IMG/VR virus record: IMGVR_UViG_3300007775_000176
Coordinates: 1 to 30,316 of that record
Strand: one strand, 5' to 3'
Length of the DNA: 30,316 nucleotides
Origin: a virus
Position numbers and translations under genes: made by a program. The notes below the pieces were generated by a model. That model had not been told where the DNA came from, did not search any database, and was given only the letters and a program-made list of their open reading frames with translations. Positions 1 through 25,334 of this stretch are shown in pieces (the stretch's first letter is position 1; the number at the start of each line of letters is the position of its first letter).

Positions 1-594
1 ATTTGGAAATCCTGTTGGCAATCCTATGATGTCTTGTGGATTGTCTGATAACGCAATCATGTTTTCCTTGAATGTCTTACCAAGTGTTATAACGCCAGTG
101 CTTTGGTTCATAATTTGACCAGTGAAATCAAAAATAGGTTCTTCGATTTGTTCTATTATGCTATCTATCTTTTCTGTCCCTGTAATTTTTGTCAGATTGT
201 TTTGTATGTTTCTTGCTGCTAAGAATCCTTTTCTTGCCAAAGATAGTTTATAGATAACAACAACCATAGACCTTATATTATCTTTAGAAACACCGCTTTG
301 ACCAAAAACTGCACTTAAATATTCAGCGTATTTTCCTCCACTTGCAAAATTTTTGTATCCCAAAACCGTAGCTGCCGACTGTATGCTTGGTATATCAAAA
401 GTTTTGGTGTCTTCGTTGTTCACTAAATGGCTGAATATCTTAAATAATTCCTGGTTATATGACCAGTAAAAATCAGAAACATTGATAATATCTTCTACTT
501 CAAAAAAACATTCTGCGCCATTAGTAGCTATACCAGATAAAACCGATCTTTCTATCCCCGGGTCTTGTAAAATAGCGTTGTTTTTGTTAGGCAT
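1..594 (-). CDS. dnaB: DnaB-like replicative helicase, N-terminal part (cut by window edge)
   Basis: Manual translation from the ATG at 594 gives 198 residues that run open to the window edge, so the C-terminal ATPase domain lies outside. Residues 12-60 match the DnaB N-terminal domain pattern (ERSVLSGI, then an acidic stretch and a DFYW...HQ-like region before IFSHL). The last visible residues, DIIGLPTGFPN, match the linker motif GIPTGF that precedes the RecA-like motor in DnaB. A DnaB protein would unwind DNA as a hexamer at the phage fork. The start overlaps the end of the upstream gene by 8 bp, which suggests translational coupling. I see no primase fusion in the visible part. The Walker motifs cannot be checked here, so the call rests on the N-terminal domain, the linker and the neighbouring recombination genes. 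Confidence 0.85.
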   Translation of the reverse strand, partial: MPNKNNAILQDPGIERSVLSGIATNGAECFFEVEDIINVSDFYWSYNQELFKIFSHLVNNEDTKTFDIPSIQSAATVLGYKNFASGGKYAEYLSAVFGQSGVSKDNIRSMVVVIYKLSLARKGFLAARNIQNNLTKITGTEKIDSIIEQIEEPIFDFTGQIMNQSTGVITLGKTFKENMIALSDNPQDIIGLPTGFPN

Positions 595-1871: not shown

Positions 1872-2426
1872 TTACACCAAAATATCTTGCCCGTTAAATC
1901 TTGTCTGCACACCTAGGTTTCCATCGTATAGACAACACTGAACACCAGCCTCTGTTAGCATTGACCAGCCCTGGATAATTGAATCGACCCAAACCTTGTG
2001 GGAAATTGCTTTAGCCATCAATTGTGCGTGTCCAATAACCCTGACTATCCCTCCTTGGATTATATCTTTTGCACATTCAGAACAACAATAAAAAGGACAA
2101 TACATTATAGACCCTTCTGTTCTTATCCCCTTTTTCGCCCCATACAATACAGCATTGCTCTCTGCGTGAACAACCAATCCATATTTAGTAGGCTTGTCAG
2201 CCAATCTTTCATCTGTCTCTGCTATACCTCTCGGAAATCTGTTGGCACCATGTGTTAGGATATTATAATCACCATCAATCAGAATAGCACCATTTTTAGT
2301 GCTTGGGTCTGGACTAATGGTATTTCCATAGTCGTACGCATGTATTAACAATATTTTTGATTCTTCATCTTTTATTATCTCAAATGGCTGTGGCAACCAA
2401 TTAAGATCATTGGTAATGTCATTCAT
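1872..2426 (-). CDS. dCMP/cytidine deaminase family protein
   Basis: 184 residues. The zinc-dependent deaminase signature is visible: H87-A-E89 (VVHAESNAV) supplies one zinc ligand and the proton-shuttle glutamate, and CCSEC (C115, C118) supplies the other two. Upstream, NGAILIDGDYNILTHGANRFPRG matches the first strands and substrate loop of dCMP deaminases. The reaction converts dCMP to dUMP, the substrate of thymidylate synthase; a ThyX gene lies in the same window. It overlaps recA by 8 bp and is followed directly by the nuclease gene. A tRNA or other cytidine deaminase cannot be excluded, but nucleotide-metabolism context and size favour dCMP deaminase. Confidence 0.85.
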   Translation of the reverse strand: MNDITNDLNWLPQPFEIIKDEESKILLIHAYDYGNTISPDPSTKNGAILIDGDYNILTHGANRFPRGIAETDERLADKPTKYGLVVHAESNAVLYGAKKGIRTEGSIMYCPFYCCSECAKDIIQGGIVRVIGHAQLMAKAISHKVWVDSIIQGWSMLTEAGVQCCLYDGNLGVQTRFNGQDILV

Positions 2427-3468
2427 TATCTTCTCCCTGGGGCAACAAAGTATTTCTTATTTCCTGTTCTAAAACAATTAACTTCTCTGGATTTTGATGC
2501 AAAAAGGCGGAAAGTCTAGCTATACCCTGAAATTTAGGAATCTCATTTTTATCTTTAAACATTGGAACAGTATACCAAGCTCCAGCCCTGTCGATCAAGC
2601 CTAGATTTTCTGCTATATTTAAGACATCTCTGATCCTATCTATCCCTATGCCGTATCTAAGAGGTATGATACAAGGCAACAATGGACGACCCATAGCAGA
2701 CGACTGAACTGTTATGTGCATATCATGACCATCAGGAGCATTGGTTTCTGGATTTTTTTCCCATTGTTTTGTCCACATTACCTTAAGCCAGACAGAACAA
2801 GCATACTGTATAGCCCCTCCACCCTTTTCAGTGTACTTTGGACCCATAGGCTCTCTGTTTGTCATAATTTGTGAAATGAATATGAGAATAATGTCGTTTG
2901 AATCAACTATTTGCTGTGTTCTTCTGAAGAATGAAGACAATAATTTTGCTGATCCAGCCATATCTTTATTAGAACCAAACTCAGAATCTTGTTCGGCCAT
3001 CGTCGATAACGCAGCAATGCTATCTATCACTACAACTGCTCTTTTTTCTGTTTTTGATATACGCTCTATGATGTTTAGATAATCTTCTGCTGTTAAAGGT
3101 TTATCTACGTGATGTGGAATAACTTGTAGTTTTGACGGGTCTAACCCTTTAATGGTGGCCAATAGCGATGGAGTACATCTTCTTTCTATGTTAATATAAA
3201 ATGTAGGTCTATTTTGTAATTGTGCATTTTTAAGTATTTCCAAACACAACGTAGTCTTTCCAGATTTTGGTTTACCAGTGATTAAACAGACAGTGCCATC
3301 CGGTATTCCACCGCTTAGCGCTATATCCAAAGAAAGTGGTGTATTCAATACTTGTCTCGATCTTGGAGGCAGTGCATCCGAAGCCGGGGCAATAATCCCT
3401 TCTCCGTGCATCCTCGTCAAAAATTGATCTAACGATTCTTTCGGAACATTGATTTTTTTTCTAGCCAT
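2419..3468 (-). CDS. RecA/UvsX-like recombinase
   Basis: 349 residues, the usual length of RecA. Walker A is GKPKSGKTT (residues 65-73), Walker B is RAVVVIDSIAAL (D149), followed by the RecA-type L1/L2 region with IFISQIMTNR and a GGGA loop (EKGGGAIQYACSVWL). It should form ATP-dependent filaments on single-stranded DNA for strand exchange and recombination-dependent replication. The N-terminal helix region (PKESLDQFLTRMHGEG) is short and the C-terminus is acidic, as in RecA. The stop overlaps the deaminase start by 8 bp and its ATG overlaps the upstream gene's TAG, so the cluster is likely one translational unit. Whether it is nearer RecA or UvsX needs a tree. Confidence 0.9.
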   Translation of the reverse strand: MARKKINVPKESLDQFLTRMHGEGIIAPASDALPPRSRQVLNTPLSLDIALSGGIPDGTVCLITGKPKSGKTTLCLEILKNAQLQNRPTFYINIERRCTPSLLATIKGLDPSKLQVIPHHVDKPLTAEDYLNIIERISKTEKRAVVVIDSIAALSTMAEQDSEFGSNKDMAGSAKLLSSFFRRTQQIVDSNDIILIFISQIMTNREPMGPKYTEKGGGAIQYACSVWLKVMWTKQWEKNPETNAPDGHDMHITVQSSAMGRPLLPCIIPLRYGIGIDRIRDVLNIAENLGLIDRAGAWYTVPMFKDKNEIPKFQGIARLSAFLHQNPEKLIVLEQEIRNTLLPQGEDNE

Positions 3469-6497: not shown

Positions 6498-7451
6498 CTA
6501 AAAAGGAGTTTCGTCTGCTGATATCTCAGTTTTTGCTCCAGGGCACATGTCTTTGAAAAAACATCTCTTGCACGAACATTCATTCTCTGTCCTAGGGAAA
6601 GCCGAGGGATTGTTTTTGTTGTTATGGGCTTCTGTCAATAAAGGATATTCCCTTTGTATTATACCGGCTTGTCTTTTCATGTGTTCGATTGTTACTTTTA
6701 GTTCTGGGATAGCCTTTTCTTTAATTTCATTGTATGCGAACAGATAGACAGGCACTATCACTATGTCTTCTGGATTTCTAGACCATCCCATCTTCATAGC
6801 ATACATAGCATATGTAGTTAACTGATCCAACACACTATCGTTGACTTTCCCAGTTTTCCAGTCGATCAGATATACCTTTCCATTATGTTTGAAGCCACAG
6901 TCAATTTTAACAGAAACTTCCTCGTCGCTTGACAACCTAAACTTTTGAAAGTCCTCCAGAGTCAACCAATCATCTTTCTTTAAAGATGTCAATACTGAGA
7001 ATAAAGACATACTATAAAACGATTTTAAGGAAGACAAAACTTTGAATTTAGCTGCTTTTGTTTGGTCGTCAGAAACATCTTCCTGATAAAAATGTTCATA
7101 CAAATTTACATTTGCTTTAGCACTAGCTTGCCATCTTTTATCTACAGACTGTTTCCAACCTTTTCTTAGCAACTGTATTGCATACGCTTGTGCTTCTTCC
7201 AGCTTTAACCATTCTCCAGAATCTCGTCCCTTAGTAATCACATATTCTATCGTATCGTGAACTATCGATCCTACCCACATAGGAATATTCGTCATATTCT
7301 TGAGCATATATGCTCTTCTCTTTTCTTGTGGGGCACTTGGAAGCCATCCCTCCCAGGAAAGATAGTAGGTTAGATAATATTTCCAGCGACATTCTCTTAG
7401 TGTTTTAACGCGAGATTCGCTCCAAGCATATGTTTGCTCTAGTTTCGCCAT
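6498..7451 (-). CDS. RecB/Cas4-like PD-(D/E)XK exonuclease with Fe-S cysteines
   Basis: 317 residues. The pattern is that of the Cas4/AddB/PDDEXK_1 nucleases: an N-terminal Cys (C21, in TLRECRWKYYL), a helical motif with H65 (GSIVHDTIEY), catalytic D184 (VKIDCGF), D197-W-K199 (IDWKTGK), Q210, and three C-terminal cysteines in CSCKRCFFKDMC. C21 plus the C-terminal cysteines probably hold a 4Fe-4S cluster. Such enzymes resect DNA ends and feed recombination, which fits the RecA gene downstream. No helicase domain is fused. There is no cas1/cas2 or repeat array nearby, so a CRISPR role is unlikely. Confidence 0.85.
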   Translation of the reverse strand: MAKLEQTYAWSESRVKTLRECRWKYYLTYYLSWEGWLPSAPQEKRRAYMLKNMTNIPMWVGSIVHDTIEYVITKGRDSGEWLKLEEAQAYAIQLLRKGWKQSVDKRWQASAKANVNLYEHFYQEDVSDDQTKAAKFKVLSSLKSFYSMSLFSVLTSLKKDDWLTLEDFQKFRLSSDEEVSVKIDCGFKHNGKVYLIDWKTGKVNDSVLDQLTTYAMYAMKMGWSRNPEDIVIVPVYLFAYNEIKEKAIPELKVTIEHMKRQAGIIQREYPLLTEAHNNKNNPSAFPRTENECSCKRCFFKDMCPGAKTEISADETPF

Positions 7452-7688: not shown

Positions 7689-8888
7689 TTATTTCCTATT
7701 CCCCTTTTGAAGCCTTTCCCCTACTCCATCTCTATTGATGTAATAGCCTCTGTCCCAGAAAGGGAAGAATGTAGGGCTGAACCTGGTAATACTACCCTTA
7801 ATGTCTTGCTGTATTGTTATGGTTGAGAAGCCAACATGCGCAGCAAGTTTTCTCTTTCTCATGAACTTAGTTTGGTCTTGTGTGCATCCAGCCTGTACAC
7901 AGTGTACGTTGCGAGGAAAACAATATTCTTGTTTATGATAGTGGCCGATGATACAAACAGACGGCTTTTCTCCACCTTGAAAAGATTCTACCAATTTTTG
8001 ACTAGCATATGAATATGCGTATGAACTTCCGCCACCAGCATGAATAACTTTTATGATAGCTTTTCCTTGTGGCGCGTGCAGTTCGAAGTCTGCTTCCATG
8101 TATCCCATATAGACTAGATCGTCTCGTCCTTGCGCTTGAGCTTCTAGCATAAGATATCTACCGAACTCGATACCTTCTCTTTGTTGGAACCACCCTTCGT
8201 GATCGTCTCCATCTACATAAAAAGTTTTGATTCCTGGTCGTCTTGGCCAGTGATCGATAGCATACTGACACTGATCAGCTATGCCGTGCGCATACAATTC
8301 ATGAGTATTAAATCTACATTCACCATCAACGTAATTCCCGGGACAAAGTACCGTAGTTATACCCTGCGCCTCAAATTCATCATAAGCAGCGTTTAATACG
8401 TCTAATCTTTCGGATTTACTACACATGTGCATATCTGCAACAACTCCAAAAGTAATAGGCTGGTCATAAAAATGATTTTCAATAACAATTCCAGAATTGG
8501 AGAATTCAACAGAATTACCGAGCTTTACCGTGTTGCCCTGGCGAATAATTATATATCCACGACTTTCCATGTCTTCTATGACTGCTGTGACATCGCCTTC
8601 ATTAGATCGCATAGCTTCTGCAATCTTAGCTACCGTGGTCGATTTCTTTAATCGTCTGGCTACCTCCGATCTGAACAATGGTTCTCCCGGGTCTATGCCG
8701 ACCTTTGGAATATTGCTCAAGATAATCTCTGCCTGAGTAATGATTTTTCTAGCCTTCCAAACGCTAACACCTAGCTCGTTGGCGACTACTTCCCTGAGTT
8801 TTCCTTTTATCCTACCCTTCTTATGTTCTCTCATTAGGGAGATAGTCTTTTCCATGTTCTGATCCATAATTGGGTTCTGTTTGCTCAT
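7689..8888 (-). CDS. Winged-helix/calcineurin-like metallophosphatase fusion
   Basis: 399 residues. Residues 10-125 look like one or two helix-turn-helix/winged domains (VANELGVSVWKARKII; VARRLKKSTTVAKIAEAM...GYIIIRQGNTVKL). From 147 on there is a calcineurin-like phosphoesterase: D152-M-H154, PGNYVDG (N185), GDDHEG (D229, H230), H283 (IHAGG) and GHYH (315-318). The usual GDxxD aspartate that bridges the two metals reads Asn (PGN), so metal binding or activity may be altered. A DNA-binding head on a phosphoesterase suggests a nuclease or a DNA-end enzyme. It is contiguous with RNR upstream and a zinc protein downstream. Confidence 0.8.
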   Translation of the reverse strand: MSKQNPIMDQNMEKTISLMREHKKGRIKGKLREVVANELGVSVWKARKIITQAEIILSNIPKVGIDPGEPLFRSEVARRLKKSTTVAKIAEAMRSNEGDVTAVIEDMESRGYIIIRQGNTVKLGNSVEFSNSGIVIENHFYDQPITFGVVADMHMCSKSERLDVLNAAYDEFEAQGITTVLCPGNYVDGECRFNTHELYAHGIADQCQYAIDHWPRRPGIKTFYVDGDDHEGWFQQREGIEFGRYLMLEAQAQGRDDLVYMGYMEADFELHAPQGKAIIKVIHAGGGSSYAYSYASQKLVESFQGGEKPSVCIIGHYHKQEYCFPRNVHCVQAGCTQDQTKFMRKRKLAAHVGFSTITIQQDIKGSITRFSPTFFPFWDRGYYINRDGVGERLQKGNRK

Positions 8889-10670
8889 CTAGTCTCCACC
8901 TTTCTCTGTCTCGCAAAGTCCACCAGGACAGTCGTTTACAGATGCTTCTTCTTCTGTTTTGTTCAGATATTCTCTTGCTTTATCTAATGGCAGAGGAATA
9001 AGGGGTGATTCTCCTTTGCTACCGTCTCTATAAACAGTGATACCCTTTAAGTCCTCTATGTATCTACGCATATCTTTAGATAATTGTTCTGGTTCATATT
9101 CGTTTGGTAGATTTATAGTTTTAGAAATTGCATTATCTATGTGTTTTTGACAAATTGTTTGCATAGCTAAATGGTCTGACGGAGAAATGTCGTGAGCACC
9201 CTGAAAATATCTTATAGACCTACCAGAAGACAAAAATTGTTTTAACAAAGGATGCATAACTATCTCTACTGTTTTGTTCTTCTTTTTATTGTGCATATCT
9301 TTATGAACATTAAACCGTCTTTCGTAGATAGGCTGAAATAATGGTTCTATACCAGAAGAACATCCAGCTACTATAGATGTTGTTCCAGTAGGCGCTATGG
9401 TTAATATAGCACAATTTCTTAGTCCGTGTTCTTTAATTAACCGATGGTGTCTTCTGGGTAAAGACCTTTTGACGAATCCTGTTTTAACGTGTTGTTCTGC
9501 TTCAAATGCATGGAAAGGCCCTTTTTCCACAGCAAGCGTTATACTAGCATGATAAGCTTGTTTTTTAATGAAAGCCATAATTGTATCAACTAGGTCTCTA
9601 GCATTTTGACTAGAATATTTTAGACCAAGTTCTAATAGCATATCGTGTAGACCCATAACGCCAAGACCTATTCGTCTATGTTTTTGACATATTTCTTCTA
9701 TTTGTGGTAATGGATAACTATTCTGATCCAAAACATTGTCTAGAAATCTAACTCCTGTGGAAACAGTCTCTTCGAGTAAATCCCAGTCTATTGCTCCGTC
9801 TATAACATGTGTATGTAAGTTAATAGCACCCAAACAGCAACAACCATAATTTTCAAGTGGCACCTCGCCACAGGGGTTAGTCGAAGTAATCTCGCCACCA
9901 TCGACATAAGAGATAGTATTTTGTTCGTTCATCAAACCTATATTTAGAAGGCCTGGGTCTCCATTAATCAGTGAGTTCTTTACTATTTTATTCCAGATTT
10001 CTTTTGCAGGCATACTACCTTTTTCTTCCCCATGCCATTTAAATATTACGTCTTTGTTTTCATCTAACAATTTCAAAAATTGAGAATCAATACAAACGGA
10101 AATATTCGCATTGTTTAGTTCTTTGTTCTCTAATTTGGCTTCTAAAAATTCTGGTAAATCTGGATGGTCATATTTCAAACAAAGCATCAAAGCGCTTCTT
10201 CGACCTCCGCCTTCTCTAAGTTCGTCGCAAACAGCGTTGACGGCTCTCATCAAACTAACAGCACCAGTGGCTTCTCCACCAGTGCCTCTAATAAGAGTCC
10301 CTCTTGGGCGTATCTTTGAAAAGTTGACACCAACCCCACCACCAGTCCCAGAAATAATTGTTATATTCTTAAGGACATCTCCCCATCCTTCTCTACTATC
10401 TTCTGCTGGTATAACAAAACAGTTCAATAACTGCCCCCGTGGTCGTCCTGCCCCCCTCCAGATTCTTCCGCCAGGAGAAAATCTGTTTGTGGCCATGATA
10501 TCTAAAAATCTTCTGTAGTATTCATCTCTTTTTTTACCAAGTTCGGCATCTGCGATACATCTAGAAACCCTTTGGCAAGCTTCAAAAAATGTTTCCTCGC
10601 TGTGAATAGCGTATCTATCTTTGAATATTTTTAAAGCGAATCCTTCTGGTGAATATTTTTCTGGACACAT
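8889..10670 (-). CDS. nrdJ: Class II (adenosylcobalamin-dependent) ribonucleotide reductase
   Basis: 593 residues. Active-site features are clear: C84 (LLNCFVIP), the NPCGE motif at 265-269 that carries the thiyl-radical Cys, a following GCCCLGAINL, the phosphate-binding TIAPTGTTS loop, and a C-terminal Cys pair (CPGGLC, 581-586) for re-reduction. No ATP-cone is seen at the N-terminus. The sequence pattern (GTGGGVGVNFS; SSGIEPLF) and absence of an NrdB partner point to class II NrdJ, which makes a radical from vitamin B12 and reduces ribonucleotides without oxygen dependence. The host or environment must supply cobalamin. Its ATG overlaps the HD gene stop (TTAATG). With dCMP deaminase and ThyX it forms a dNTP supply set. 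Confidence 0.92.
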   Translation of the reverse strand: MCPEKYSPEGFALKIFKDRYAIHSEETFFEACQRVSRCIADAELGKKRDEYYRRFLDIMATNRFSPGGRIWRGAGRPRGQLLNCFVIPAEDSREGWGDVLKNITIISGTGGGVGVNFSKIRPRGTLIRGTGGEATGAVSLMRAVNAVCDELREGGGRRSALMLCLKYDHPDLPEFLEAKLENKELNNANISVCIDSQFLKLLDENKDVIFKWHGEEKGSMPAKEIWNKIVKNSLINGDPGLLNIGLMNEQNTISYVDGGEITSTNPCGEVPLENYGCCCLGAINLHTHVIDGAIDWDLLEETVSTGVRFLDNVLDQNSYPLPQIEEICQKHRRIGLGVMGLHDMLLELGLKYSSQNARDLVDTIMAFIKKQAYHASITLAVEKGPFHAFEAEQHVKTGFVKRSLPRRHHRLIKEHGLRNCAILTIAPTGTTSIVAGCSSGIEPLFQPIYERRFNVHKDMHNKKKNKTVEIVMHPLLKQFLSSGRSIRYFQGAHDISPSDHLAMQTICQKHIDNAISKTINLPNEYEPEQLSKDMRRYIEDLKGITVYRDGSKGESPLIPLPLDKAREYLNKTEEEASVNDCPGGLCETEKGGD

Positions 10671-12940: not shown

Positions 12941-13453
12941 TTAAATTACTCCTGAGTTATGTAGTCTTCTCATCTTAGATAAGGCTCTCGCTTTGATCTG
13001 ACAAACCTTAGCTGGGAAAATACCTCTATCTCTGTGTATTTCTCTCATAGTCTTCATGTTAAAGAAAATATCATTTACCACATTAAATTCTTCTTCATCT
13101 AGACATGACAGGCATTCTTGAACAATAAGTTTGCTGTCGATAGTAGGTTCAAATCCTTTAATGTCATCCAAATTATCATTCACCAGAATAGGTATTCTTT
13201 TTTGCCTGTTCTCAGAATCTCTCACATGCTTTAGTTTTCCCTTTATTCTTCCATACAAAAATGTCATGAATGACCCTATTCTCTGATAACAAATCATACA
13301 TTTTAATAATTCCATTTGTGCAATAGATATCATATCTTCAGTTTGTTCTTCGTTCGTGCTTGTTGCGATTGAAAGTTTCATGATCAATGGATGATATTTT
13401 TTCATACAGAAACTAAAATACTGACTGGTGATTCTTCTCTGTTTCGTTAACAT
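12941..13453 (-). CDS. Sigma-70-family-like RNA polymerase sigma factor
   Basis: 170 residues. The N-terminal half fits sigma region 2 (KKYHPLIMKLSI..., EEQTEDMISIAQMELLKCM, then IGSFMTFLYGRIKGKLKH), the part that binds core polymerase and the -10 element. The C-terminal half fits region 4 with a helix-turn-helix (CLSCLDEEEFNVVNDIFF, MREIHRDRGIFPAKVCQIKARALSKMRRL). Region 1 and a long region 3 are absent, as in small alternative or phage sigma factors. It could redirect host polymerase to phage promoters. It lies between ClpP and a Cys-rich gene with 1-2 base spacings. The region 4 match is stronger than region 2. Confidence 0.78.
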   Translation of the reverse strand: MLTKQRRITSQYFSFCMKKYHPLIMKLSIATSTNEEQTEDMISIAQMELLKCMICYQRIGSFMTFLYGRIKGKLKHVRDSENRQKRIPILVNDNLDDIKGFEPTIDSKLIVQECLSCLDEEEFNVVNDIFFNMKTMREIHRDRGIFPAKVCQIKARALSKMRRLHNSGVI

Positions 13454-13454
13454 T

Positions 13455-14063
13455 TTATCCCCTGATATTTTGTTCTATTTCTGGTTGCCAAATACCATCT
13501 ATCAATCCTATCTTCATCGCCTCTTTCGGAGTTAGCCAAGAGTTGTCAGACAACATTTTTTTCAATTTCTTTTCGCTTATTTTCATTCTATCACACAACT
13601 CTTTTACCTTGAACCTATAATCTTTTTCTAAATATTTTGTCATTGTTACGTGGTCCTCGATAGCACTAAGTGTAGTCTGCAATAACATAGAATGAATCAT
13701 AAATGAAGAATTTTTGGTTGCATATCTCCTGCCAATATTACCATGTGCAGCTATTATCGCCGCCATAGAATAGCATTGTCCCCGAGTAATTGTCCATATT
13801 TCAGATTTACACAAAAGCATCTGATCTATGATAGCATAACCGGAACCAACGCATCCACCAGTACTATTTATATACATATAAATAGGTTTACCAACGATAT
13901 CTAACATTTGTAATTGGCCACAAACATGCGCAGCAGTTACTTCATCTATTAGGCCTACCAACTGGATTCTTCTTGTTGTTATTAAAAATTCCTCTGTAAA
14001 TCTATCTAGGCTATCATATTCAAAATCCTGTACATCACCTTCTTCTGGATTTTTGTCAGACAT
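13455..14063 (-). CDS. clpP: ClpP-like serine peptidase
   Basis: 202 residues from the ATG at 14063, the usual ClpP length; the longer frame would run into the recombinase gene. Family features: INSTGGCVGSGYAI (oxyanion loop), catalytic S99 in CYSMAAIIAAHG, H124 in FMIHSM, and the LTPKEAMKIGLIDGI tail. The position of the third catalytic residue (usually Asp two before W/F in DxW) appears to be Asn174 (SDNSW), a substitution seen in some active ClpP paralogues. It should form barrel peptidases and could use host ClpX/ClpA or adaptors. No phage ATPase partner is adjacent. A prohead-protease role is less likely with no capsid genes nearby. Confidence 0.88.
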   Translation of the reverse strand: MSDKNPEEGDVQDFEYDSLDRFTEEFLITTRRIQLVGLIDEVTAAHVCGQLQMLDIVGKPIYMYINSTGGCVGSGYAIIDQMLLCKSEIWTITRGQCYSMAAIIAAHGNIGRRYATKNSSFMIHSMLLQTTLSAIEDHVTMTKYLEKDYRFKVKELCDRMKISEKKLKKMLSDNSWLTPKEAMKIGLIDGIWQPEIEQNIRG

Positions 14064-14076
14064 TATTTTTCTTTTT

Positions 14077-14967
14077 CTATTTTTGCGCAACACATATATC
14101 TCCAAACGGGTGGTTTATTGCATGTATTTGTGACAGATACTCAAGATCAGAGACTATATACGCTTCTGTTGTTTCTATATTTTGGTGTCCAAGTAAATTT
14201 TTTACTAACTCTATGTTCATGCCATTTCTTAAAAGATTTGTTGCACAACTTCTTCTTAAAACATGCGGTGTAAGATATGGTATACCACATTTGAAACCTA
14301 TTCTTTTTATACGATCCCCGACAGCGTGTCTTGTCAGTGGTCTATCATTTTTTGATACAAATAAGGACCAAGATGTGCAGTCTGTCATTTTCTCCAAATA
14401 AATAGATACCGCAGACAGGCATCTCTGTGATGTAGGAACTATTCTTTCTATGCAACCTTTTCCAAAAACTCTTATTTCTTTTTTCTGGAATGAAATGTCT
14501 TCTTTTTTTAATCCACAAACTTCTGAAACTCGCAATCCACTTTCATACATAAGAAGAACTATGGTTTTATCTAAAAAACTTCTCTCCGAATCTAGTCTTT
14601 CAAGAATTGTATTAAATTGTTGCTCACTTATTTTCTCTAGACTATTTCTTTTTTGAACCGAAACAGAATTCATACAGTCCACTATAGACTTATCTATCTT
14701 TGATAAACTCACTAAATTATTTATCGCACATCTAATAGACATTTGTTTTCTTTTAATAGTACTCGGTTTTAATCCTTGACACTTTAATGTTTCGATAAAT
14801 TGATCTATAGTGTCATTTGATATCAATCTTTTACCAAGGAATCTTTTGAAATCTGCAATATCCCCCATATATGCTTTTATACTGTTTGTCGAGAGACCGA
14901 GTTCATTTTTCATGTACGACCACAATTGATCCATACAAATTTTATCAGAACTAATTTGGTTTACCAT
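14077..14967 (-). CDS. XerC/D-like tyrosine recombinase
   Basis: 296 residues, the size of XerC/XerD. The N-terminal SAM-like core-binding domain (LSTNSIKAYMGDIADFKRFL) is followed by the catalytic domain with R146 (SGLRVSEVCGL), K170 (VFGKG), H235-x-x-R238 (TPHVLRRSCAT), H261 (LLGHQNIETTEAY) and nucleophile Y270. It could resolve genome multimers or integrate DNA. There is no excisionase or obvious att site nearby, and the neighbours (ClpP, sigma, ThyX) are lytic-type genes, so integration is not implied. No clear ribosome site precedes the ATG. Confidence 0.9.
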   Translation of the reverse strand: MVNQISSDKICMDQLWSYMKNELGLSTNSIKAYMGDIADFKRFLGKRLISNDTIDQFIETLKCQGLKPSTIKRKQMSIRCAINNLVSLSKIDKSIVDCMNSVSVQKRNSLEKISEQQFNTILERLDSERSFLDKTIVLLMYESGLRVSEVCGLKKEDISFQKKEIRVFGKGCIERIVPTSQRCLSAVSIYLEKMTDCTSWSLFVSKNDRPLTRHAVGDRIKRIGFKCGIPYLTPHVLRRSCATNLLRNGMNIELVKNLLGHQNIETTEAYIVSDLEYLSQIHAINHPFGDICVAQK

Positions 14968-15054: not shown

Positions 15055-15879
15055 TTACACCCTTCTATATTCAGACTCAACACCAAGTGTTCCGTCTGGC
15101 AAACTGACTATTCCAAGGCCATGGGCTAAAAGCGGTGCTTTATCTTGCAAAATTTTGCAAATTTTTACCGCCAACGCCCTTATTTCAACATCAGCAAAGG
15201 GATTTGCCCTAAGTTCTACGAAATGCCTGATGGCTCTAGCGTTCATTGTAACAAATATTTTTGTTTCAGTTGCATTTGGTAAAACAGACCTAGCTGCCTG
15301 CCTTGCTTTCTTTCTTCGTTCCAGACTCGATTCGTTATCTGCGTACATTTCTGATAACTTAGCTGTCAACATTTCATATACATCCTTAGACTTTTCACAA
15401 TGAGCTAGCCACTTCTGAAATGCTTCCGGGTCTTTATCCGCTAGTTCTCTTATAGCTGGCGGGACAACAAAGTTAACATCAGAAGAGTCAACATATCTTT
15501 GGCTAAGCTGTGAATATGATGCAAGCCTATGTCTGACTAGTTCGTGTGTGAGACTACGAGAAACATTCCATATAATAAAATTGAAATTCGCATGTTCTAT
15601 ACATGCGCCATGACCAACTTCTATAAGATGTTTAACATGATCTTCATGTGATCTACCCTTTGGTTTTCCACCCTTTTGAGGCCATGACTGATAACAGTTT
15701 CTTCCGGCCATTTCTACCAGCCACTCGGAGTCAAAATCTCCTAGAGCAGACATATTGTCTAAATTACTTGCGAACTCTGGCCATTCATATCCGTGTTCTT
15801 CCAAAAATCTTGTAACTCCATCTATTTCTATTACTGGTTTTCCAACTAGTTCTACTTCTGGCTCGGTTACAAATCCCAT
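15055..15879 (-). CDS. thyX: Flavin-dependent thymidylate synthase ThyX
   Basis: 274 residues. The ThyX signature RHRxxSxxxxSxRY is complete at 116-129 (RHRLASYSQLSQRY). Flanking family motifs include CIEHANFNFII and the C-terminal ARSVLPNATETKIFVTMNARAIRHFVELR, which holds FAD and dUMP residues. It methylates dUMP to dTMP using FAD and methylene-tetrahydrofolate. The dCMP deaminase in this window can supply dUMP. Gene order ThyX next to small unknowns, with an AGGAG-like site (AAGGAG) before the ATG. Confidence 0.95.
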   Translation of the reverse strand: MGFVTEPEVELVGKPVIEIDGVTRFLEEHGYEWPEFASNLDNMSALGDFDSEWLVEMAGRNCYQSWPQKGGKPKGRSHEDHVKHLIEVGHGACIEHANFNFIIWNVSRSLTHELVRHRLASYSQLSQRYVDSSDVNFVVPPAIRELADKDPEAFQKWLAHCEKSKDVYEMLTAKLSEMYADNESSLERRKKARQAARSVLPNATETKIFVTMNARAIRHFVELRANPFADVEIRALAVKICKILQDKAPLLAHGLGIVSLPDGTLGVESEYRRV

Positions 15880-16443: not shown

Positions 16444-16749
16444 CTAATAAGTTTCAATATCATCCATTATTATATCTACGAGTCCAGTAACCCTAGCGTG
16501 TTTTCTGTGTGCCACCAAATAAGCTCTTTTTATATTTTTCAAATCAATACTAGTTTCTAAAAACACTGGATCATCTTCTTGTGAAAATTCTTGTCTTACT
16601 AGAACATCAGCGAAGCATAGCCTCTTTTCTACTACTATTCCAACACACTTAAACCATCTCGGTTGCGATCTCCCGTTTTTATAATCATAATTTTGAATTT
16701 TGGCTACTACCAAATCACCAACCTTAACTGATTTTTTCGTTGTTTTCAT
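16444..16749 (-). CDS. Small SH3-like hypothetical protein
   Basis: 101 residues from the ATG at 16749; the earlier candidate start lies inside the BrxL-like gene. It opens with SVKVGDLVVAKIQNYDY and continues beta-rich (WFKCVGIVVEKRLCFADVLV), typical of small SH3/KOW-type barrels. The opening closely resembles the protein at 25766-26098 (SVKVGDLAIAKF), so the two may be distant paralogues. It overlaps the BrxL-like gene by 26 bp, which suggests co-expression. Function unknown; it ends with TAG. Confidence 0.7.
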   Translation of the reverse strand: MKTTKKSVKVGDLVVAKIQNYDYKNGRSQPRWFKCVGIVVEKRLCFADVLVRQEFSQEDDPVFLETSIDLKNIKRAYLVAHRKHARVTGLVDIIMDDIETY

Positions 16750-18196
16750 AAATTTTATATTCCAATTTAACACCTTTAAACTCATCGGGTAAAATTACAG
16801 CCAATTGATCTATTACTCTTTGTCTTAGGTCGACAGCAATATCAAGTATCATTTTTAGATTTTTCTTATCAACTTCTTGATTCATATAGTGAGGAAACAT
16901 TAGTTTCATCAAGCCAGAACTTATTCTGACTATTGATCTTTGATTTCTTTGAGACATCTTCCCAAAGTCTACATTAGACAGAATTATATTCACGTAGTTT
17001 CTAGATCGCATTTTATGCATAATTTCACTTATATAATCCGCCATAAATCCGTAACCTTTTGACAATTTTGATTCTCTGATCTGTGGTATCTTCCATCCAG
17101 GAATAAATCCATGTATTCTGTCCAAGAATGCTCTATCTCTATTTACGGCATTAGGAAAAGGAGAGAATAAACTTCTGTATCGTGAAGATACTTTTCTATT
17201 CTCCCTGTCACAATCTATATTCCCAGCAAACATTGTAGAACAATCAGAAGAGAATTCAGCAGTTCCTCTGCCAAATCTACCACTATTCATGAAGTCTTTT
17301 AGTATATCTATTAAGTCTCCTTGTCCAGACCATTTGTTTAGATTTCTGTTTCCAGCGAATTCATCGAACATGACTACGTCACGATATCCAACTAGTCCTA
17401 ATTGTCGTCTAAGCTTGTCATAAAACAAAGAAGCAACTGTTGTTTGTCCACCAGAGACAACGAAACCGTAAGAACTTAGAGATTGATACGCGAATGTTTT
17501 CCCTGTTTCTGGTGGCCCTAATTCACACAAATTCACATTAGGCTCTATGAACGGCACCATTCTAACCATATACATAATCTTTTCTTCAAAAGAAAGATGT
17601 GTAGGATCAAATCCGATACTATTAATCATGATATTAAGCCATTCGTCGTCGTTAAATTCCGACCTTTTCCTTATCCAGGCATCTACGTCTATGTCGGTTA
17701 TTTGCATTGGTTTGAATTCTGTCAAAACGAACGGATAAATCTTGTTTCTTAGACGAAATGATTCATCATAAGCAACCGTAAAAACACCCCAAGCGCCAGT
17801 TGTTAACAATATTTCTCCATGCTCTGCTATAAGGAACGGATTAACACGTATCTTATTGTGGCCAAGAGATGTTATGTCGGCCCAATACTGATCTATTGTC
17901 TCGTCAAACCTACACCTTACCCTACCTATCAGCCTGTGTTCCCCATTTTCTCTTATAGAACTCTTGATAAACTCTTTCTTGTCCGCTTCTACTAGGTGAC
18001 TTTCTAGCAATTTACCTATTCTAATTATTCCAGCTTCTATTTTGTCGTCTTCAACCATTTCAGAAATCAAATAATCCACTACAAAAGCAGGGAGTTTTCT
18101 GAACTGCTCACTTATTGAAGCAAGACTTTTATTGACCACGACTCCCTTCTCATCGAAGATAGCCATTAGTTTGTTGTCAATTTCTGTCACTGTCAT
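16724..18196 (-). CDS. BrxL-family AAA+ ATPase lacking the Lon-like C-terminal domain
   Basis: 490 residues. The N-terminal part (RVRCRFDETIDQYWADITS; NPFLIAEHGEILLTTGAWG) and the ATPase core match BrxL of BREX phage-defence systems almost motif for motif: DPTHLSFEEKIMYMVRMVPF, IEPNVNLCELGPPETGKTF (Walker A 227-234), FVVSGGQTTVASLFY, LGLVGYRDVVMFDEFAG (Walker B, D278-E279), ILKDFMNSGRFGRG, FAGNID, then DRIHGFIPGWKIP and YGFMADY. BrxL is known as an AAA+ ring ATPase related in shape to MCM helicases. Host BrxL is about 680 residues and ends in a Lon-protease-like domain; this one stops right after the lid, so that domain is missing. No other BREX gene is in the window. It may serve phage replication, or act as a decoy or dominant-negative against host BREX. 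Confidence 0.88.
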   Translation of the reverse strand: MTVTEIDNKLMAIFDEKGVVVNKSLASISEQFRKLPAFVVDYLISEMVEDDKIEAGIIRIGKLLESHLVEADKKEFIKSSIRENGEHRLIGRVRCRFDETIDQYWADITSLGHNKIRVNPFLIAEHGEILLTTGAWGVFTVAYDESFRLRNKIYPFVLTEFKPMQITDIDVDAWIRKRSEFNDDEWLNIMINSIGFDPTHLSFEEKIMYMVRMVPFIEPNVNLCELGPPETGKTFAYQSLSSYGFVVSGGQTTVASLFYDKLRRQLGLVGYRDVVMFDEFAGNRNLNKWSGQGDLIDILKDFMNSGRFGRGTAEFSSDCSTMFAGNIDCDRENRKVSSRYRSLFSPFPNAVNRDRAFLDRIHGFIPGWKIPQIRESKLSKGYGFMADYISEIMHKMRSRNYVNIILSNVDFGKMSQRNQRSIVRISSGLMKLMFPHYMNQEVDKKNLKMILDIAVDLRQRVIDQLAVILPDEFKGVKLEYKIYENNEKIS

Positions 18197-18206
18197 TTAC
18201 AGGCTC

Positions 18207-18455
18207 CTATATTCCAAAAACAGACAAGGCGTCTGATCTAGTCACTAACTCTGTCTTGTCAGGCTCACATACGCCAGTCATTGGGCCAGAATTGGCTCCT
18301 GCCGCCCTTTTCAGACATACCATGTGTATTGAACCAAAAGCGCTACCGGGTTCGTCAGAGAAGCTCCAGCTATCCTTACCAACAGATACACCTTGACAGC
18401 CACCAAAAATTTTTTCGCCTTCAAGAATTTCTGAAGAACATATCAAACAAGTCAT
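18207..18455 (-). CDS. Small Cys-containing hypothetical protein, first gene of the BrxL operon
   Basis: 82 residues from the ATG at 18455, chosen because GGAG lies 6 bases upstream and because the longer frame to 18494 would begin upstream of the predicted transcription start. CLIC near the N-terminus, a later HMVC and GVC could form a zinc site (typical spacing CxxC...HxxC). The middle is Gly/Ser-rich (GSAFGSIHMVCLKRAAGANS). It is directly followed, 10 bases later, by the BrxL-like gene. Function unknown. Confidence 0.72.
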   Translation of the reverse strand: MTCLICSSEILEGEKIFGGCQGVSVGKDSWSFSDEPGSAFGSIHMVCLKRAAGANSGPMTGVCEPDKTELVTRSDALSVFGI

Positions 18456-18482
18456 GTTTGACTCCATAATATTGCGCATTCG

Positions 18483-18510
18483 ATTATAGCGCATCTTTTA
18501 AAAGAATCAA
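18483..18510 (-). promoter_or_regulatory. Sigma70-type promoter for the BrxL operon
   Basis: Minus strand: TTGATT (18510-18505), a 16-base spacer, and TATAAT (18488-18483). Five of six -35... four of six bases match TTGACA and all six match TATAAT. Predicted start is near 18476, about 20 bases before the first ATG (18455). This is the best conventional promoter in the window. Confidence 0.7.
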
Positions 18511-18747: not shown

Positions 18748-19206
18748 TTAAATCTTAGATTTATTTTTATTCTCTTCTGACTCTCTATCTATTATCAAAA
18801 TTCCGTCAAGATGATCTATTTCGTGTTGCCACACACTCGTCATGAGAGCGTCTCCCATAAATCTTATCTCTTTGCCGGAAGATGATTCTCCAATCAAAAA
18901 CGATTTTTTTCCTCTTGTTACAGTAGCTAAAACTCCAGGTAAAGACAAACAACCTTCCGTAGACTTAAAACTACCACTAACCTCTTCTAATCTTGGATTC
19001 CAGATTGCGTGATTCATCCTGTCTTGTTTCCAAACAAACATTCTCGTGTCCATACCTACTTGTGGTGCTGATAGACCTATTCCATGGTGTTTCCTCATCA
19101 GTTCCCACATTTCCTTGGCTACCTTTTCTCTGTCTTGCTTACTTTTTTTATCACATTGTTTGCAGATAATAGATAGTCTTTTGTCTGGATATATTACTAA
19201 CTGCAT
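18748..19206 (-). CDS. def: Peptide deformylase
   Basis: 152 residues from the ATG at 19206, preceded by GGAGA. All three metal-site motifs are present: GIGLSAPQ (42-49), EGCLS (84-88) and HEIDH (128-132), giving Cys86, His128 and His132 as metal ligands and Glu129 as catalyst. It removes formyl groups from new proteins. It has a C-terminal Lys/Glu/Asn tail and otherwise the compact size of phage deformylases known from marine phages. It overlaps the small gene upstream by 10 bp. Confidence 0.93.
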   Translation of the reverse strand: MQLVIYPDKRLSIICKQCDKKSKQDREKVAKEMWELMRKHHGIGLSAPQVGMDTRMFVWKQDRMNHAIWNPRLEEVSGSFKSTEGCLSLPGVLATVTRGKKSFLIGESSSGKEIRFMGDALMTSVWQHEIDHLDGILIIDRESEENKNKSKI

Positions 19207-19421
19207 TGAATAATCTCCAACCAATGCTTGTTTGTCCTGGTCGTTTTTGACTGCCTATATTCTTTAATCCATACATTGAACAAATCGTCTCTTCCAGAAG
19301 ATTCTGGTAGTTCAAAATCTGTTATTGGTCCGAAATTATCTGTTCTGAAATGTTCTGGAATCAACCCATGACACACCTCTATGTTAGTATTGTCTATTTT
19401 CAACTTACATATTGTTGGCAT
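19197..19421 (-). CDS. Small hypothetical protein
   Basis: 74 residues from the ATG at 19421, chosen for the AGGGGA site about 6 bases upstream; a further in-frame ATG at 19454 lacks one. The product is acidic with a strand-rich start (MPTICKLKIDNTNIEVCHGL) and a helical C-terminus (DDLFNVWIKEYRQS). It overlaps the preceding mini-gene by 17 bp and the deformylase by 10 bp. No family recognised. Confidence 0.7.
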   Translation of the reverse strand: MPTICKLKIDNTNIEVCHGLIPEHFRTDNFGPITDFELPESSGRDDLFNVWIKEYRQSKTTRTNKHWLEIIQCS

Positions 19422-19575
19422 AAAAAATCCCCTTTTGATAATTTCTTCTGACATTCGTTCTGATATATTTTTTTGCAGAAGATAATGTTATATTTCCATG
19501 AGATTCTATTTCAGACCTGAGATATGATATAACAATTCTTCTTAAAGCTTTTCTTCTTATTTCTCTTTTCGACAT
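19405..19575 (-). CDS. 56-residue basic protein, third member of a tandem mini-gene family
   Basis: Found by reading the minus strand between longer genes. ATG at 19575, with GGGGTG upstream, through TAA at 19405. The protein is Arg/Lys-rich (KREIRRKALRRIVISYLRSEI) with a central SHGNIT and a basic C-terminal helix (AKKYIRTNVRRNYQ). It aligns with the two genes upstream: helix, L-R-x-x-I, x-H-G-x-I-T, then a basic helix, which indicates tandem duplication. Two short helices around an HG(P/N)(I/V)T turn could be a small nucleic-acid binding unit. It is divergent from the other two, so possibly the oldest copy. Confidence 0.65.
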   Translation of the reverse strand: MSKREIRRKALRRIVISYLRSEIESHGNITLSSAKKYIRTNVRRNYQKGIFYANNM

Positions 19576-19601
19576 TTAAGGCACCCCATAGATTCGCGTA
19601 A

Positions 19602-19758
19602 TTAATCATTCGACATGATTGTATTTACTATCCTTTTAGTGGCGCTACCTATCAAAGATTTAGTTACGGGTCCGTGGTGGTTGATAGTGTCTTTGAGTCC
19701 ACCGAAAATCATTCTTTTTATTATTGTCTGTTGTGTCTTTTTTTTCTTTTTTTTTCAC
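19602..19758 (-). pseudogene. Second mini-gene copy, shifted at an A9-G-A8 tract
   Basis: A GTG at 19758 with GGGGG upstream begins a Lys-rich N-terminus encoded by A9-G-A8. The frame that matches the sister gene (GGLKDTINHHGPVTKSLIGS, then ATKRIVNTI) is one base off and only has an ATG at 19712, giving 36 residues. Losing one A from either tract gives a 51-residue protein that aligns end to end with the 49-residue sister gene. Either the tract is mis-called, the copy is broken, or polymerase slippage on the long A tract makes the full product. Without a shift the GTG frame yields only 32 residues. Confidence 0.62.
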
Positions 19759-19787
19759 TTTAAGCCCCCAAAGAATTAAGATATTCT

Positions 19788-22411: not shown

Positions 22412-22653
22412 TTTGTTTCTCCATGTTTATTGCTTCTAAATTCTTCGTATTTTCCGTTGTTATAAAGTTTACACACAAACGGATAGTAAATTCCTTTGTA
22501 CAAATTTAAATGAATACCTTCAAAAAGACCACAGATCATTCCTTTGTCTAAAGACTAGAAATTTTTTACAACATGTTCTGGATTATTACCTCTAGCGTAG
22601 ATAATCCATCTCAACCCATTGTCGTTTAAAGCTATTATTGTATAATTTTTCAC
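22408..22653 (-). pseudogene. Small gene with an in-frame TAG but conserved ends
   Basis: A GTG at 22653 (overlapping the TAG of the DUF3150 gene by one base) opens a frame that reads NYTIIALNDNGLRWIIYARG, then hits TAG at 22555-22557. The same frame continues as coherent protein (SLDKGMICGLFEGIHLNLY, YPFVCKLYNNGKYEEF) and ends with TGA at 22408-22410, overlapping the next gene's ATG as ATGA. Both ends thus have normal operon coupling, which says the 81-codon frame was one gene. TAG ends several other genes here, so general TAG reassignment is unlikely. Nonsense mutation, sequence error or readthrough remain. Confidence 0.68.
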
Positions 22654-23660
22654 TAAAGCACGATCTTTCTTTTTAATTCTCCAATAAATCCAGAAACATC
22701 ATCACCTTCAGAAGCCGCTTTATTCCTGATGGCTTCCAAAGACTTGGTGACACTATCTTTTATGTTTATACTATCGAAGTCTTTTGGTGACACATTATCT
22801 CCGAGAAAAGAATTCTTGAATTCTGATAGCATTTTTTCTATTTCTGAATCTCCGAAGATATTCATAGATTTAAATCTATCTACATATTTTTTGAAAGAAG
22901 AAATAGATTTTGGTGTAAGGTTTTTAACGTCGTCTTCGTTCGCGAATGGCTTACCAAGTATTCTAGCAGTCATTAAATCACAAAATCTAATTGTCTCATT
23001 TCTCATTGCAGAAACATATTCGCCGACGAACTTACCAACTTCTTTTTGCATTTGGGTTTTTAGTTCTTTCGTTTTTTCGTCTATTACTGTTTCTCGTGCG
23101 ATTTCATCGTCAATAGAGGTTTCTTGAATAGCATCTAGACCGGCTATTTTGAATGTGAACCAATCAAATTGAAATTTTTCTCTCAATAGCTTTGGGTTGG
23201 CAGGATAACTATGTTTGAGACATTTTTCCCAGAATTCTGGATGTGTATTCTTTACGCTACTGACAAGTTCGTCAAACCTTGAGATAAAACTATCAACCTT
23301 AGTAAAGAATTCATCTTTAAGGTCTTTAAGTGTTGCATCTACGGTAGGAAGCATTTTTCTGGGAATAAAATGAGCACTAGCTATACCGAACGGTACAGAC
23401 CATCTCTCAAGTGCTTTTCTGCCTCTTTGTTCTACTTGATTAATCGCTTGCAGTTCGTGTTTGGGAACCATCAGTTTCCTACCAAGGTTGACTATATCTT
23501 GCGGAAGTTTGTCTGGATTATACCCAAGAGTTACCATGTCAGAACGAGTTAACATTTTTCTTCCGCTCCAAGACCTGATTCTAAGATTTACTAGACTGCC
23601 AACTTTGAATAGGCTGATTGTGTCATTTTTTTGTTGTGGTTCTAAACTTACTGTTGTCAT
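22653..23660 (-). CDS. DUF3150-family protein
   Basis: 335 residues. The N-terminal signature fits DUF3150: LVNLRIRSWSGRKMLTRSDM, then the GRKLMVPKHELQAINQVEQR and GRKALERWSVPFGIASAHFIP segments. The rest is helical (coiled-coil-like around residues 100-140 and 200-260). DUF3150 proteins are usual partners of AAA+ ATPases in phages and bacteria; the Ycf46-like ATPase lies just upstream. No enzymatic motif visible. A role in an ATPase/adaptor assembly is inferred from neighbours. Confidence 0.82.
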   Translation of the reverse strand: MTTVSLEPQQKNDTISLFKVGSLVNLRIRSWSGRKMLTRSDMVTLGYNPDKLPQDIVNLGRKLMVPKHELQAINQVEQRGRKALERWSVPFGIASAHFIPRKMLPTVDATLKDLKDEFFTKVDSFISRFDELVSSVKNTHPEFWEKCLKHSYPANPKLLREKFQFDWFTFKIAGLDAIQETSIDDEIARETVIDEKTKELKTQMQKEVGKFVGEYVSAMRNETIRFCDLMTARILGKPFANEDDVKNLTPKSISSFKKYVDRFKSMNIFGDSEIEKMLSEFKNSFLGDNVSPKDFDSINIKDSVTKSLEAIRNKAASEGDDVSGFIGELKRKIVL

Positions 23661-23724
23661 TTTTGACTCCTTAAAATATTTGTTAGTTACTTAAACAATC
23701 ACCAATATTTTTTAATGAAAAGAT

Positions 23725-25281
23725 TTACAGTGAAATTTTTCTTGCTCCTATTTTAGGTGGAGCACTTTTCTTTATTGGATTTGCTGGTTTCGCGTGTTTA
23801 TCACACCAATTTTTAATTTGAGCTATTTTATCTCCTTCGGTTTTGGACAACGGGATAATTTCAGTAATGGCATTTGTTAGATGGTCGTTTGATAATGGAT
23901 TTCCTTCAGCGAACGCGCTTTTCAATCCAAGTTTGACTACTTGTTCTATGTCGGACCCAGTGAAACCTTCAGTTTGTTCTGACAAAGATTGTATATCGTA
24001 ATTATTTTCATTTCTACCTCTTTTCTTTAATTGGATTGTGAATATTTCTTCTCTCTCTGTTGGTCGAGGCAAATCAAGGCCAAATATGGCGTCAAATCTT
24101 CCAGTTCTCTTAAATTCTGCTGGTAAACATTCTACTTGATTAGCTGTTGCGACACAATAGACTGGAGCTACTCTGTCGCTAGACCAGGTCAAAAATTTAC
24201 CGAAGACTCTCTTTGACGATCCCCCGTCCGAATCTCCGGAACCACCAAATCCTTTTTCTACTTCATCAAGTTGAAGTACACAAGGAGATATACTTTCTAT
24301 CATTTTAATACATTCTCTCATATTCCTCTCAGATTCTCCAACAAATTTGTCCATCATGTTGCCGACATCCATAGACACTAGTGGTAATTGAAGTTCAGAA
24401 GCAATTGCTTCAGAAAGTAACGTCTTGCCACAACCCGGAATTCCAACCAACAATATACCTCGCGGAAATTCAATACCAAATTCTCTTGCCTCTTCAGTAA
24501 AACATGGCTTATCTAACAGAACGTGTTTCTTCAGGGCGTCGTATCCTCCTACGTTTTTCAATCCACCAATAGGTGGCTCTTTATATTCCAAAAGTCCAGA
24601 AGCCCTAATGATACCAGCCTTTTCATTCATGATCGTTTTGGATGCTTCTTCGTTTAAATTCTTGTGTTTCCTTAGAGCTAGAGCTACCCTATTAACAATT
24701 TGTTGTGATGTCATACCCCTACATGCGTCTATTACGTGAGGGATAAATTTTTTGTCAATCTTAACTTCTGATCCATTTTCATCTAGGACGAAAGAGCAAA
24801 CGAAATTAATTCTTTCTAGAATCTCTTCTCTTTCTGGAAGATCAAAGTCTATGACTGTTATATCATGCAACAATGGTTTTGGCGCAGAGAAGTCTGGGCC
24901 AACAAAAATAATAGTTTGCTCAACTGAAGATATCAATCTTCTTACCTGATCAAGCCAAGAGATGACTACATCATGAAGTTGGTATGTATCTTTATTGATA
25001 TAATATCCAAAATCTTTCAAGATAAAGATAGAATTTTCTGGCATTTCCAATATACATTCAATATATTTGTGTATTGGAGTAGTGGCTTTAAAATTCCCTT
25101 GTGGCCGACCTTTCGCATCTTTCCAACCATCAGACACAGACCATATAAATACTTTTTTTGACAAGTTTTTTGCTATTTCATTTATTTCTAATATAGCCCT
25201 GTCCTTTTCAAAAGTATCTACAGACAAAAGCGCATGACCAGAGCATATATAATCAGTCATGTTATTCTTGAAAGTTTTCAT
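23725..25281 (-). CDS. Ycf46-like AAA+ ATPase
   Basis: 518 residues from the ATG at 25281 (a GTG three bases earlier is possible). The N-terminal 230 residues are a Ycf46-type domain with a degenerate nucleotide-binding region (ALLSVDTFEKDRAILEI; SIFILKDFG; ERILERI-like). The C-terminal AAA+ core has GLKNVGGYDALKKH, Walker A GIPGCGKT (about 280-287), DVGNMMDKFVGESERN, Walker B VLQLDEVEK, RVFGKFLTW and TGRFDAIFGLDLP with the arginine finger. Those match cyanobacterial and plastid Ycf46, where the family clusters with DUF1257 and DUF2997, both encoded here. It probably remodels a protein or complex. The host target is unknown. Confidence 0.88.
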   Translation of the reverse strand: MKTFKNNMTDYICSGHALLSVDTFEKDRAILEINEIAKNLSKKVFIWSVSDGWKDAKGRPQGNFKATTPIHKYIECILEMPENSIFILKDFGYYINKDTYQLHDVVISWLDQVRRLISSVEQTIIFVGPDFSAPKPLLHDITVIDFDLPEREEILERINFVCSFVLDENGSEVKIDKKFIPHVIDACRGMTSQQIVNRVALALRKHKNLNEEASKTIMNEKAGIIRASGLLEYKEPPIGGLKNVGGYDALKKHVLLDKPCFTEEAREFGIEFPRGILLVGIPGCGKTLLSEAIASELQLPLVSMDVGNMMDKFVGESERNMRECIKMIESISPCVLQLDEVEKGFGGSGDSDGGSSKRVFGKFLTWSSDRVAPVYCVATANQVECLPAEFKRTGRFDAIFGLDLPRPTEREEIFTIQLKKRGRNENNYDIQSLSEQTEGFTGSDIEQVVKLGLKSAFAEGNPLSNDHLTNAITEIIPLSKTEGDKIAQIKNWCDKHAKPANPIKKSAPPKIGARKISL

Positions 25282-25334
25282 CACTTTGTTCCTTTTGTAT
25301 TATTGTCCACGATAATCAACCTAATTAAAAAAAA

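Follow-up and report, generated by a model that had tools for sequence, protein, structure and literature searches.

A short BrxL-family ATPase encoded near thyX behaves as a BREX-free core gene of large tailed phages and forms a clade apart from the sampled type-1 and type-4 BrxL

Introduction

BrxL is a component of the bacteriophage exclusion (BREX) anti-phage systems and is known in long and short forms. Type-1 BrxL carries a C-terminal Lon-like (or HKD nuclease) domain, and the protein of Acinetobacter sp. NEB 394 (679 residues; PDB 8EMC, 8EMH), encoded in a BREX operon, binds double-stranded DNA, is a DNA-dependent ATPase and assembles rings on DNA, two of which are paired by its Lon-like domain (PMC10164562). 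BrxL of type-4 BREX consists of N-terminal domains and an AAA+ core resembling that of minichromosome maintenance (MCM) helicases, has no C-terminal extension (PMC12839542), and is encoded next to genes for PglZ, a BrxC-like protein and PAPS reductase. MCM helicases have been reported in phages (PMC5862659); for a phage-encoded BrxL no report was found in the open-access literature, with few subscription articles covered. Here we describe a gene for a 490-residue BrxL-family protein in IMGVR_UViG_3300007775_000176, a virus record of 30,316 bases in IMG/VR that was analysed over its whole length (the window). That the window is phage DNA is deduced from its relatives, in which terminase and tail-like genes occur. 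The BrxL family and its short form were already known; what is new is a BREX-free third clade that behaves as a core gene of large tailed phages.

Results

The window protein is a true BrxL-family AAA+ ATPase, with an N-terminal domain at about residues 1–150 and an MCM-like AAA+ core at about residues 156–477. BrxL_ATPase (PF13337) scores 358.9 bits (E 2e-107, cut-off 25), BrxL_N (PF20442) 95.2 bits (E 4e-27, cut-off 28.2) and NCBIfam TIGR02688 442.4 bits (cut-off 329.3); the PADLOC BrxL model matches at E 9e-133, and Acinetobacter BrxL (PDB 8emc/8emh) matches residues 17–480 at 7e-86, with 34–36% identity. BrxL was by far the best family, and the Pfam and NCBIfam tables for the protein had no entry for MCM. 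The original prediction, made from the letters of the DNA, had placed a BrxL N-terminal domain and AAA+ core in this reading frame, and both its coordinates and its family assignment were correct.

It had also proposed that the protein stops before the Lon-like domain, and this is borne out. The long-form model TIGR02653 aligns only over positions 3–473 of 675 and scores 392.8 bits, short of the 628.25 that its cut-off demands. The idea that the gene is truncated, or that a Lon domain is concealed in the frame, was considered and ruled out: relatives in three phage clades are all short, with open frames of 467–509 residues, and in contig L001 no more than a few bases lie between the stop codon of BrxL and the point where the thyX match begins, leaving no room for such a domain. 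All 16 BrxL genes found in 398 bacterial genomes of one phylum have frames of 640–756 residues, so the short form is unusual in comparison with type-1 BREX. It is, however, shared with type-4 BrxL, which in Methanosphaera plasmid pNP174 (L135) and in records L118 and L119 measures 472–503 residues; the absence of the Lon domain is thus real but not new in itself, and does not alone point to a truncated decoy. Type-4 BrxL is 29–31% identical to the window protein.

The active site is intact. In the Walker A motif G227, T231, K233 and T234 are invariant across clade 1, the phage clade to which the closest relatives belong, as are D354, R355, D359 and R360 of the DRAFLDR motif, which may supply the arginine finger. 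Equivalents of Walker A and Walker B are present in all clades, and a sensor-1-like GN and the DR...DR motif are also kept in the phage proteins. E279 in Walker B corresponds to E280 of Acinetobacter BrxL, where the mutation E280Q abolished restriction, and the counterparts of Acinetobacter E79, L134, R265 and E280 are conserved. Clade 2 departs from this in Walker A, where alanine or serine occupies the position of the final glycine (GxxxxAKT, GxxxxSKT), the usual form in MCM helicases. A structure model built with an alignment of 28 sequences had a predicted local distance difference test (pLDDT) score of 84 and a predicted template modelling score of 0.86; a model from a shallow alignment was set aside for the low quality of its core (pLDDT 62). 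The predicted fold matched BrxL (8emh) best, with Z 42.9 over 470 residues, and the next matches were chains of MCM helicases (Z 16–18 over about 350 residues, identity mostly 9–16%). MCM helicases, such as that of a Bacillus cereus prophage, are of the same fold class, and the clade-2 Walker A resembles theirs, but at such identities, with a clear BrxL profile and with a DnaB homologue also encoded by the phages, the window protein is distinct from them.

BrxL lies near thyX in one conserved place in at least 27 other contigs, which belong to three phage clades and reach 181 kb; linked homologues in related phages, which the original prediction had suggested looking for, thus exist. Their BrxL proteins are 41–72% identical to that of the window. 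A scan of IMG/VR gave ten loci at 66–72% identity, a scan with an alignment extended clade 1 by contigs of as little as 57% and revealed a second clade at 44–47%, and a search with the terminase as bait returned a member of a third clade at 41%. The gene order in clades 1 and 2 is peptide deformylase, BrxL, ThyX, and in the third clade BrxL is next to ThyX. Because a search with BrxL favours contigs that have it, other genes also served as bait. With the phosphoesterase, BrxL was present in five of the five contigs that reach the position, and with the terminase in all ten contigs longer than 100 kb, two of which (L004 and L008) are near-identical. Thirteen further records (12 found through the terminase and one through a clade-2 gene) contained both BrxL and ThyX in two cases and neither in 11, all of the latter fragments shorter than 91 kb. 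As BrxL occurs in all long contigs found by bait and co-occurs with ThyX, it behaves as a core gene. Contig L035 was dismissed as a relative without BrxL, for the phosphoesterase gene is all that it has in common with the window; it is an otherwise unrelated phage contig (57% guanine plus cytosine), and its copy of that gene (L035:10001-11179), 64% identical, lies beside a PolA-like polymerase gene.

A search of INPHARED with the clade-1 terminase gave remote matches only (the best at about 26% identity), and no close cultured relative is known there. When the alignment of phage proteins was used to scan bacterial genomes, the sole return was L088 (QIFK01000064.1), the contig of 22,005 bases already known as L003, here assigned to a metagenome-assembled genome of Nitrosospira. 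This binning is a weak hint at the host of the phage group and not evidence for it.

The phage BrxL proteins group together (support 100/98) in a tree of 51 proteins, where type 1 (99/98) and type 4 (100/100) are separate. As far as these sequences can tell, they represent a third BrxL clade outside the sampled type-1 and type-4 proteins. The comparison with host BrxL that the original prediction had called for thus places them in neither known group; no direction of descent is drawn, as the tree has no outgroup and includes three type-4 rows only, with long branches flagged. Within clade 1 mean identity is 72% for BrxL, 74% for ThyX and 46–58% for eight other genes of the block. Among computable pairs the ratio of nonsynonymous to synonymous substitution rates (dN/dS) was 0.03–0.05 for BrxL, 0.03–0.06 for ThyX and 0.10–0.20 for the integrase, values that are read only as strong constraint because even the closest pairs approach saturation at synonymous sites. 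Clade-1 BrxL distances co-vary with those of seven of nine neighbours (r 0.49–0.61, p <= 0.007); the correlation is unclear for the deformylase (r 0.28, p 0.084) and a 62-residue gene (r 0.18, p 0.141).

The statement that no other BREX gene is nearby also stood. PglZ (PF08665) and BrxC (NF033441) were found in none of 11 records (the window and ten relatives, five of the 11 being of 160–180 kb, and not all necessarily complete genomes), and BrxL was the sole BREX protein detected by PADLOC among the 50 proteins of the window that were scanned. For the type-4 partners PAPS reductase and DUF4007 the evidence is that PADLOC scan, in which BrxL was the only BREX model to match; no search was aimed directly at these two. 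Two INPHARED records labelled 'Bacteriophage sp.', L118 (MT835963) and L119 (MT835511), were dismissed as phage precedents: each holds a complete-looking type-4 BREX locus (PAPS reductase, BrxC-like protein, PglZ and short BrxL) with no obvious phage structural genes, and both are probably bacterial in origin. Four other INPHARED matches to BrxL, all below 37% identity, were neither used nor rejected.

Short virus-encoded relatives are found in archaeal filamentous viruses. When the window protein was compared with a library of viral structures, ranks one and three went to rudiviral and lipothrixviral ATPases, including a SIRV9 protein and AFV2 ORF425, which are annotated as Lon proteases (PMC4124505). 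Pfam scores SIRV2 gp18 (ORF436) and AFV2 ORF425 as BrxL_ATPase, at 44.9 and 31.1 bits respectively (cut-off 25), and PHROG 6542 ('protease'), which fits SIRV2 gp18 over its full length, matches the window protein at 2.8e-6. The protease name of both proteins is probably wrong. Like the window protein they are short (425–436 residues) and have no Lon domain; they differ in their gene context and hosting viruses, and identity in the structural alignment is 14%.

All window genes to which a function could be assigned are on the minus strand (Table 1). With the long relatives included, the co-oriented block comprises a DnaE-like polymerase, primase, DnaB, RecA-like protein, RNase H, ribonucleotide reductase and ThyX; the polymerase, which is split in two, and the primase, which is DnaG-like, were recognised by eye in G001 and G006. 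DnaB homologues are full-length in the long relatives (482–495 residues), and a DnaB-family helicase was detected by profile in every checked contig above 90 kb except G017, which ends near its recA and whose near-copy G016 (L030) shows the N-terminal part of DnaB at the contig end. Cumulative GC skew, computed for two long contigs, seems to track gene direction and indicates no origin near BrxL. The 95-residue protein encoded just upstream of BrxL is a possible BrxL partner, and the product of 12941-13453 looks, by eye, like a sigma factor.

Table 1. Features of the window and of two archaeal viruses
Feature	Position	Strand	Remarks
BrxL-family AAA+ ATPase, 490 residues, short form	16724..18196	minus	ATG at 18196, stop at 16724; profiles, structure match
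Walker A (P-loop) GPPETGKT, residues 227-234	17495..17518	minus	sequence/alignment
Walker B FDE, residues 277-279	17360..17368	minus	sequence/alignment
DRAFLDR motif, residues 354-360, candidate arginine-finger region	17117..17137	minus	conservation
ThyX (Thy1 family)	15055..15879	minus	linked to BrxL in three phage clades; directly adjacent in several members
Peptide deformylase	18748..19224	minus	conserved on the BrxL side opposite ThyX
Small 95-residue protein just upstream of BrxL	18207..18494	minus	28-42% conserved in most clade-1 contigs covering the position
DnaB-like helicase, N-terminal part	1..594	minus	runs off the window
RecA-like recombinase	2419..3468	minus	same block
PD-(D/E)XK (Cas4-like) nuclease	6498..7451	minus	same block
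Phosphoesterase	7689-8888
Ribonucleotide reductase large subunit	8889..10670	minus	same block
ClpP-like protease	13455-14105		conserved near BrxL
Tyrosine recombinase (XerC-like)	14077-14967		same spot conserved in clade 1
DUF3150 protein, 335 residues	22653-23660
Second AAA ATPase of the window	23725-25284
SIRV2 gp18	L204:10289-11599		annotated protease
AFV2 ORF425	L205:6790-8067		annotated Lon protease

Several observations concern neighbouring genes. The genes for the DUF3150 protein and the second AAA ATPase are adjacent (22653-25284), and both are about 57–69% conserved in the relatives that cover them; PADLOC IetA models match one window protein, probably this ATPase, and the DUF3150 gene used as search bait gave no matches. 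Insertions of about 0.7–1 kb split the match to ribonucleotide reductase in L002, L010, L038 and L082 and that to ThyX in L005, L009, L076 and L038, often at shared points (ThyX residue 92, reductase residues 83–85), and in L018 and L097 the DnaB frames (904–906 residues) have roughly double the normal length. All of these resemble inteins, or introns that carry homing endonucleases. An endonuclease-like gene also lies directly before BrxL in the clade-1 relative L005 (L005:1647-2285), and related genes lie near BrxL in clade 2 (L084:1625-2278, 19172-19780); they are probably free-standing homing endonucleases.

Discussion

We propose, with moderate confidence and from comparison of sequences, that the phage BrxL is a housekeeping ring ATPase in DNA replication or recombination that works beside DnaB. 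A role on the phage's own DNA is favoured because the gene keeps its place and is present almost throughout the three clades, is under strong purifying selection and sits in a block with thyX, ribonucleotide reductase, recA, dnaB and primase. The original prediction had named a replicative ring ATPase among the possible functions, and this part of it is favoured; service as the main fork helicase is unlikely, as the phages also encode a DnaB-family helicase. The protein would represent a virus-intrinsic, BREX-independent branch of BrxL, an ATP-driven ring that closes on phage DNA, as its 34–36% match to the solved Acinetobacter rings would suggest. Such a ring might act in replication, for example in origin opening, fork restart or recombination-dependent replication (strand annealing or branch handling), alongside the phage DnaB helicase. 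Without the C-terminal domain it would form single rings, or pair in a manner unlike the BrxL double rings. SIRV2 gp18, which has been suggested to act in replication, may provide an independent viral precedent; an annealing activity has reportedly been assigned to it, which is a lead only and not a test.

Several points weigh against this proposal. R104 and K287, which affect DNA binding in Acinetobacter BrxL, are not conserved in the phage proteins, and helicase and strand-exchange activities of Acinetobacter BrxL were sought and not demonstrated (PMC10164562). The match to SIRV2 gp18 is remote and confined to the ATPase core, and the near-saturation of synonymous sites makes dN/dS rough. 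A conserved early gene, moreover, need not act on DNA.

Another explanation is that the ring serves in superinfection exclusion, blocking the replication of competing phages and so performing alone the task of BrxL in BREX. Its catalytic motifs are kept, which speaks for this reading, but it has no partner to distinguish self from non-self, given the absence of PglZ and BrxC from the records searched and of any PADLOC BREX partner from the window. Exclusion genes are usually accessory and patchy; this gene is in every long contig checked and evolves like thyX, and we regard such a role as unlikely. The other function put forward in the original prediction, dominant-negative or decoy action against host BREX, has not fared well. 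The phage subunit would here join host BrxL in a common assembly, or titrate it, and so poison BREX. Mixed rings are imaginable, given the conservation of E79 and L134 at the ring interface and the absence of the C-terminal domain through which BrxL rings pair (PMC10164562). The active-site residues are nevertheless intact and not decayed, identity to the cellular BrxL proteins examined is below 40%, and the phage proteins form their own clade on a long stem, evolve slowly and are nearly universal, so a decoy appears improbable.

We would attach a similarly low probability to a motor function other than replication, such as DNA translocation or the remodelling or unfolding of proteins, perhaps with the ClpP-like protease. 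AAA+ rings are versatile and the ClpP-like gene is conserved nearby; however, it is less so than BrxL (57% against 72% in clade 1), the fold is of the MCM branch, known BrxL binds double-stranded DNA and is a DNA-dependent ATPase, and the second AAA protein of the window seems better suited to work on proteins. It is also conceivable that the window comes from a bacterial BREX locus or defence island, a piece of which strayed into a viral bin, an error that does occur, as the two INPHARED records that proved to be type-4 BREX loci illustrate. Here it is excluded for practical purposes by synteny: the same phage neighbours recur in no fewer than 27 contigs from three clades, some of them 160–181 kb long and equipped with terminase and tail-like genes, and PglZ and BrxC were not found in the 11 records.

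If the phage BrxL is indeed a replication or recombination ATPase, as we propose, a wider and more doubtful possibility is that the family is at its root a viral ATPase of this kind, core in large tailed phages and remotely represented in rudiviruses and lipothrixviruses, and that BREX co-opted the motor against phage replication. We offer this as a tentative suggestion that is clearly more likely false than true. It remains the case that the presence of a BrxL gene alone is not proof of a defence system, since defence-gene models score the phage gene as BrxL (E about 1e-132). That BrxL is a standard gene beside genes for DNA building in these large, uncultured phages suggests service to the virus's own replication, and not a stolen decoy. 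A stand-alone BrxL among phage core genes offers a simple, BREX-free version of the protein whose natural job is directly testable, and it raises the possibility that BREX acts on replication through the kind of motor that phages themselves use.
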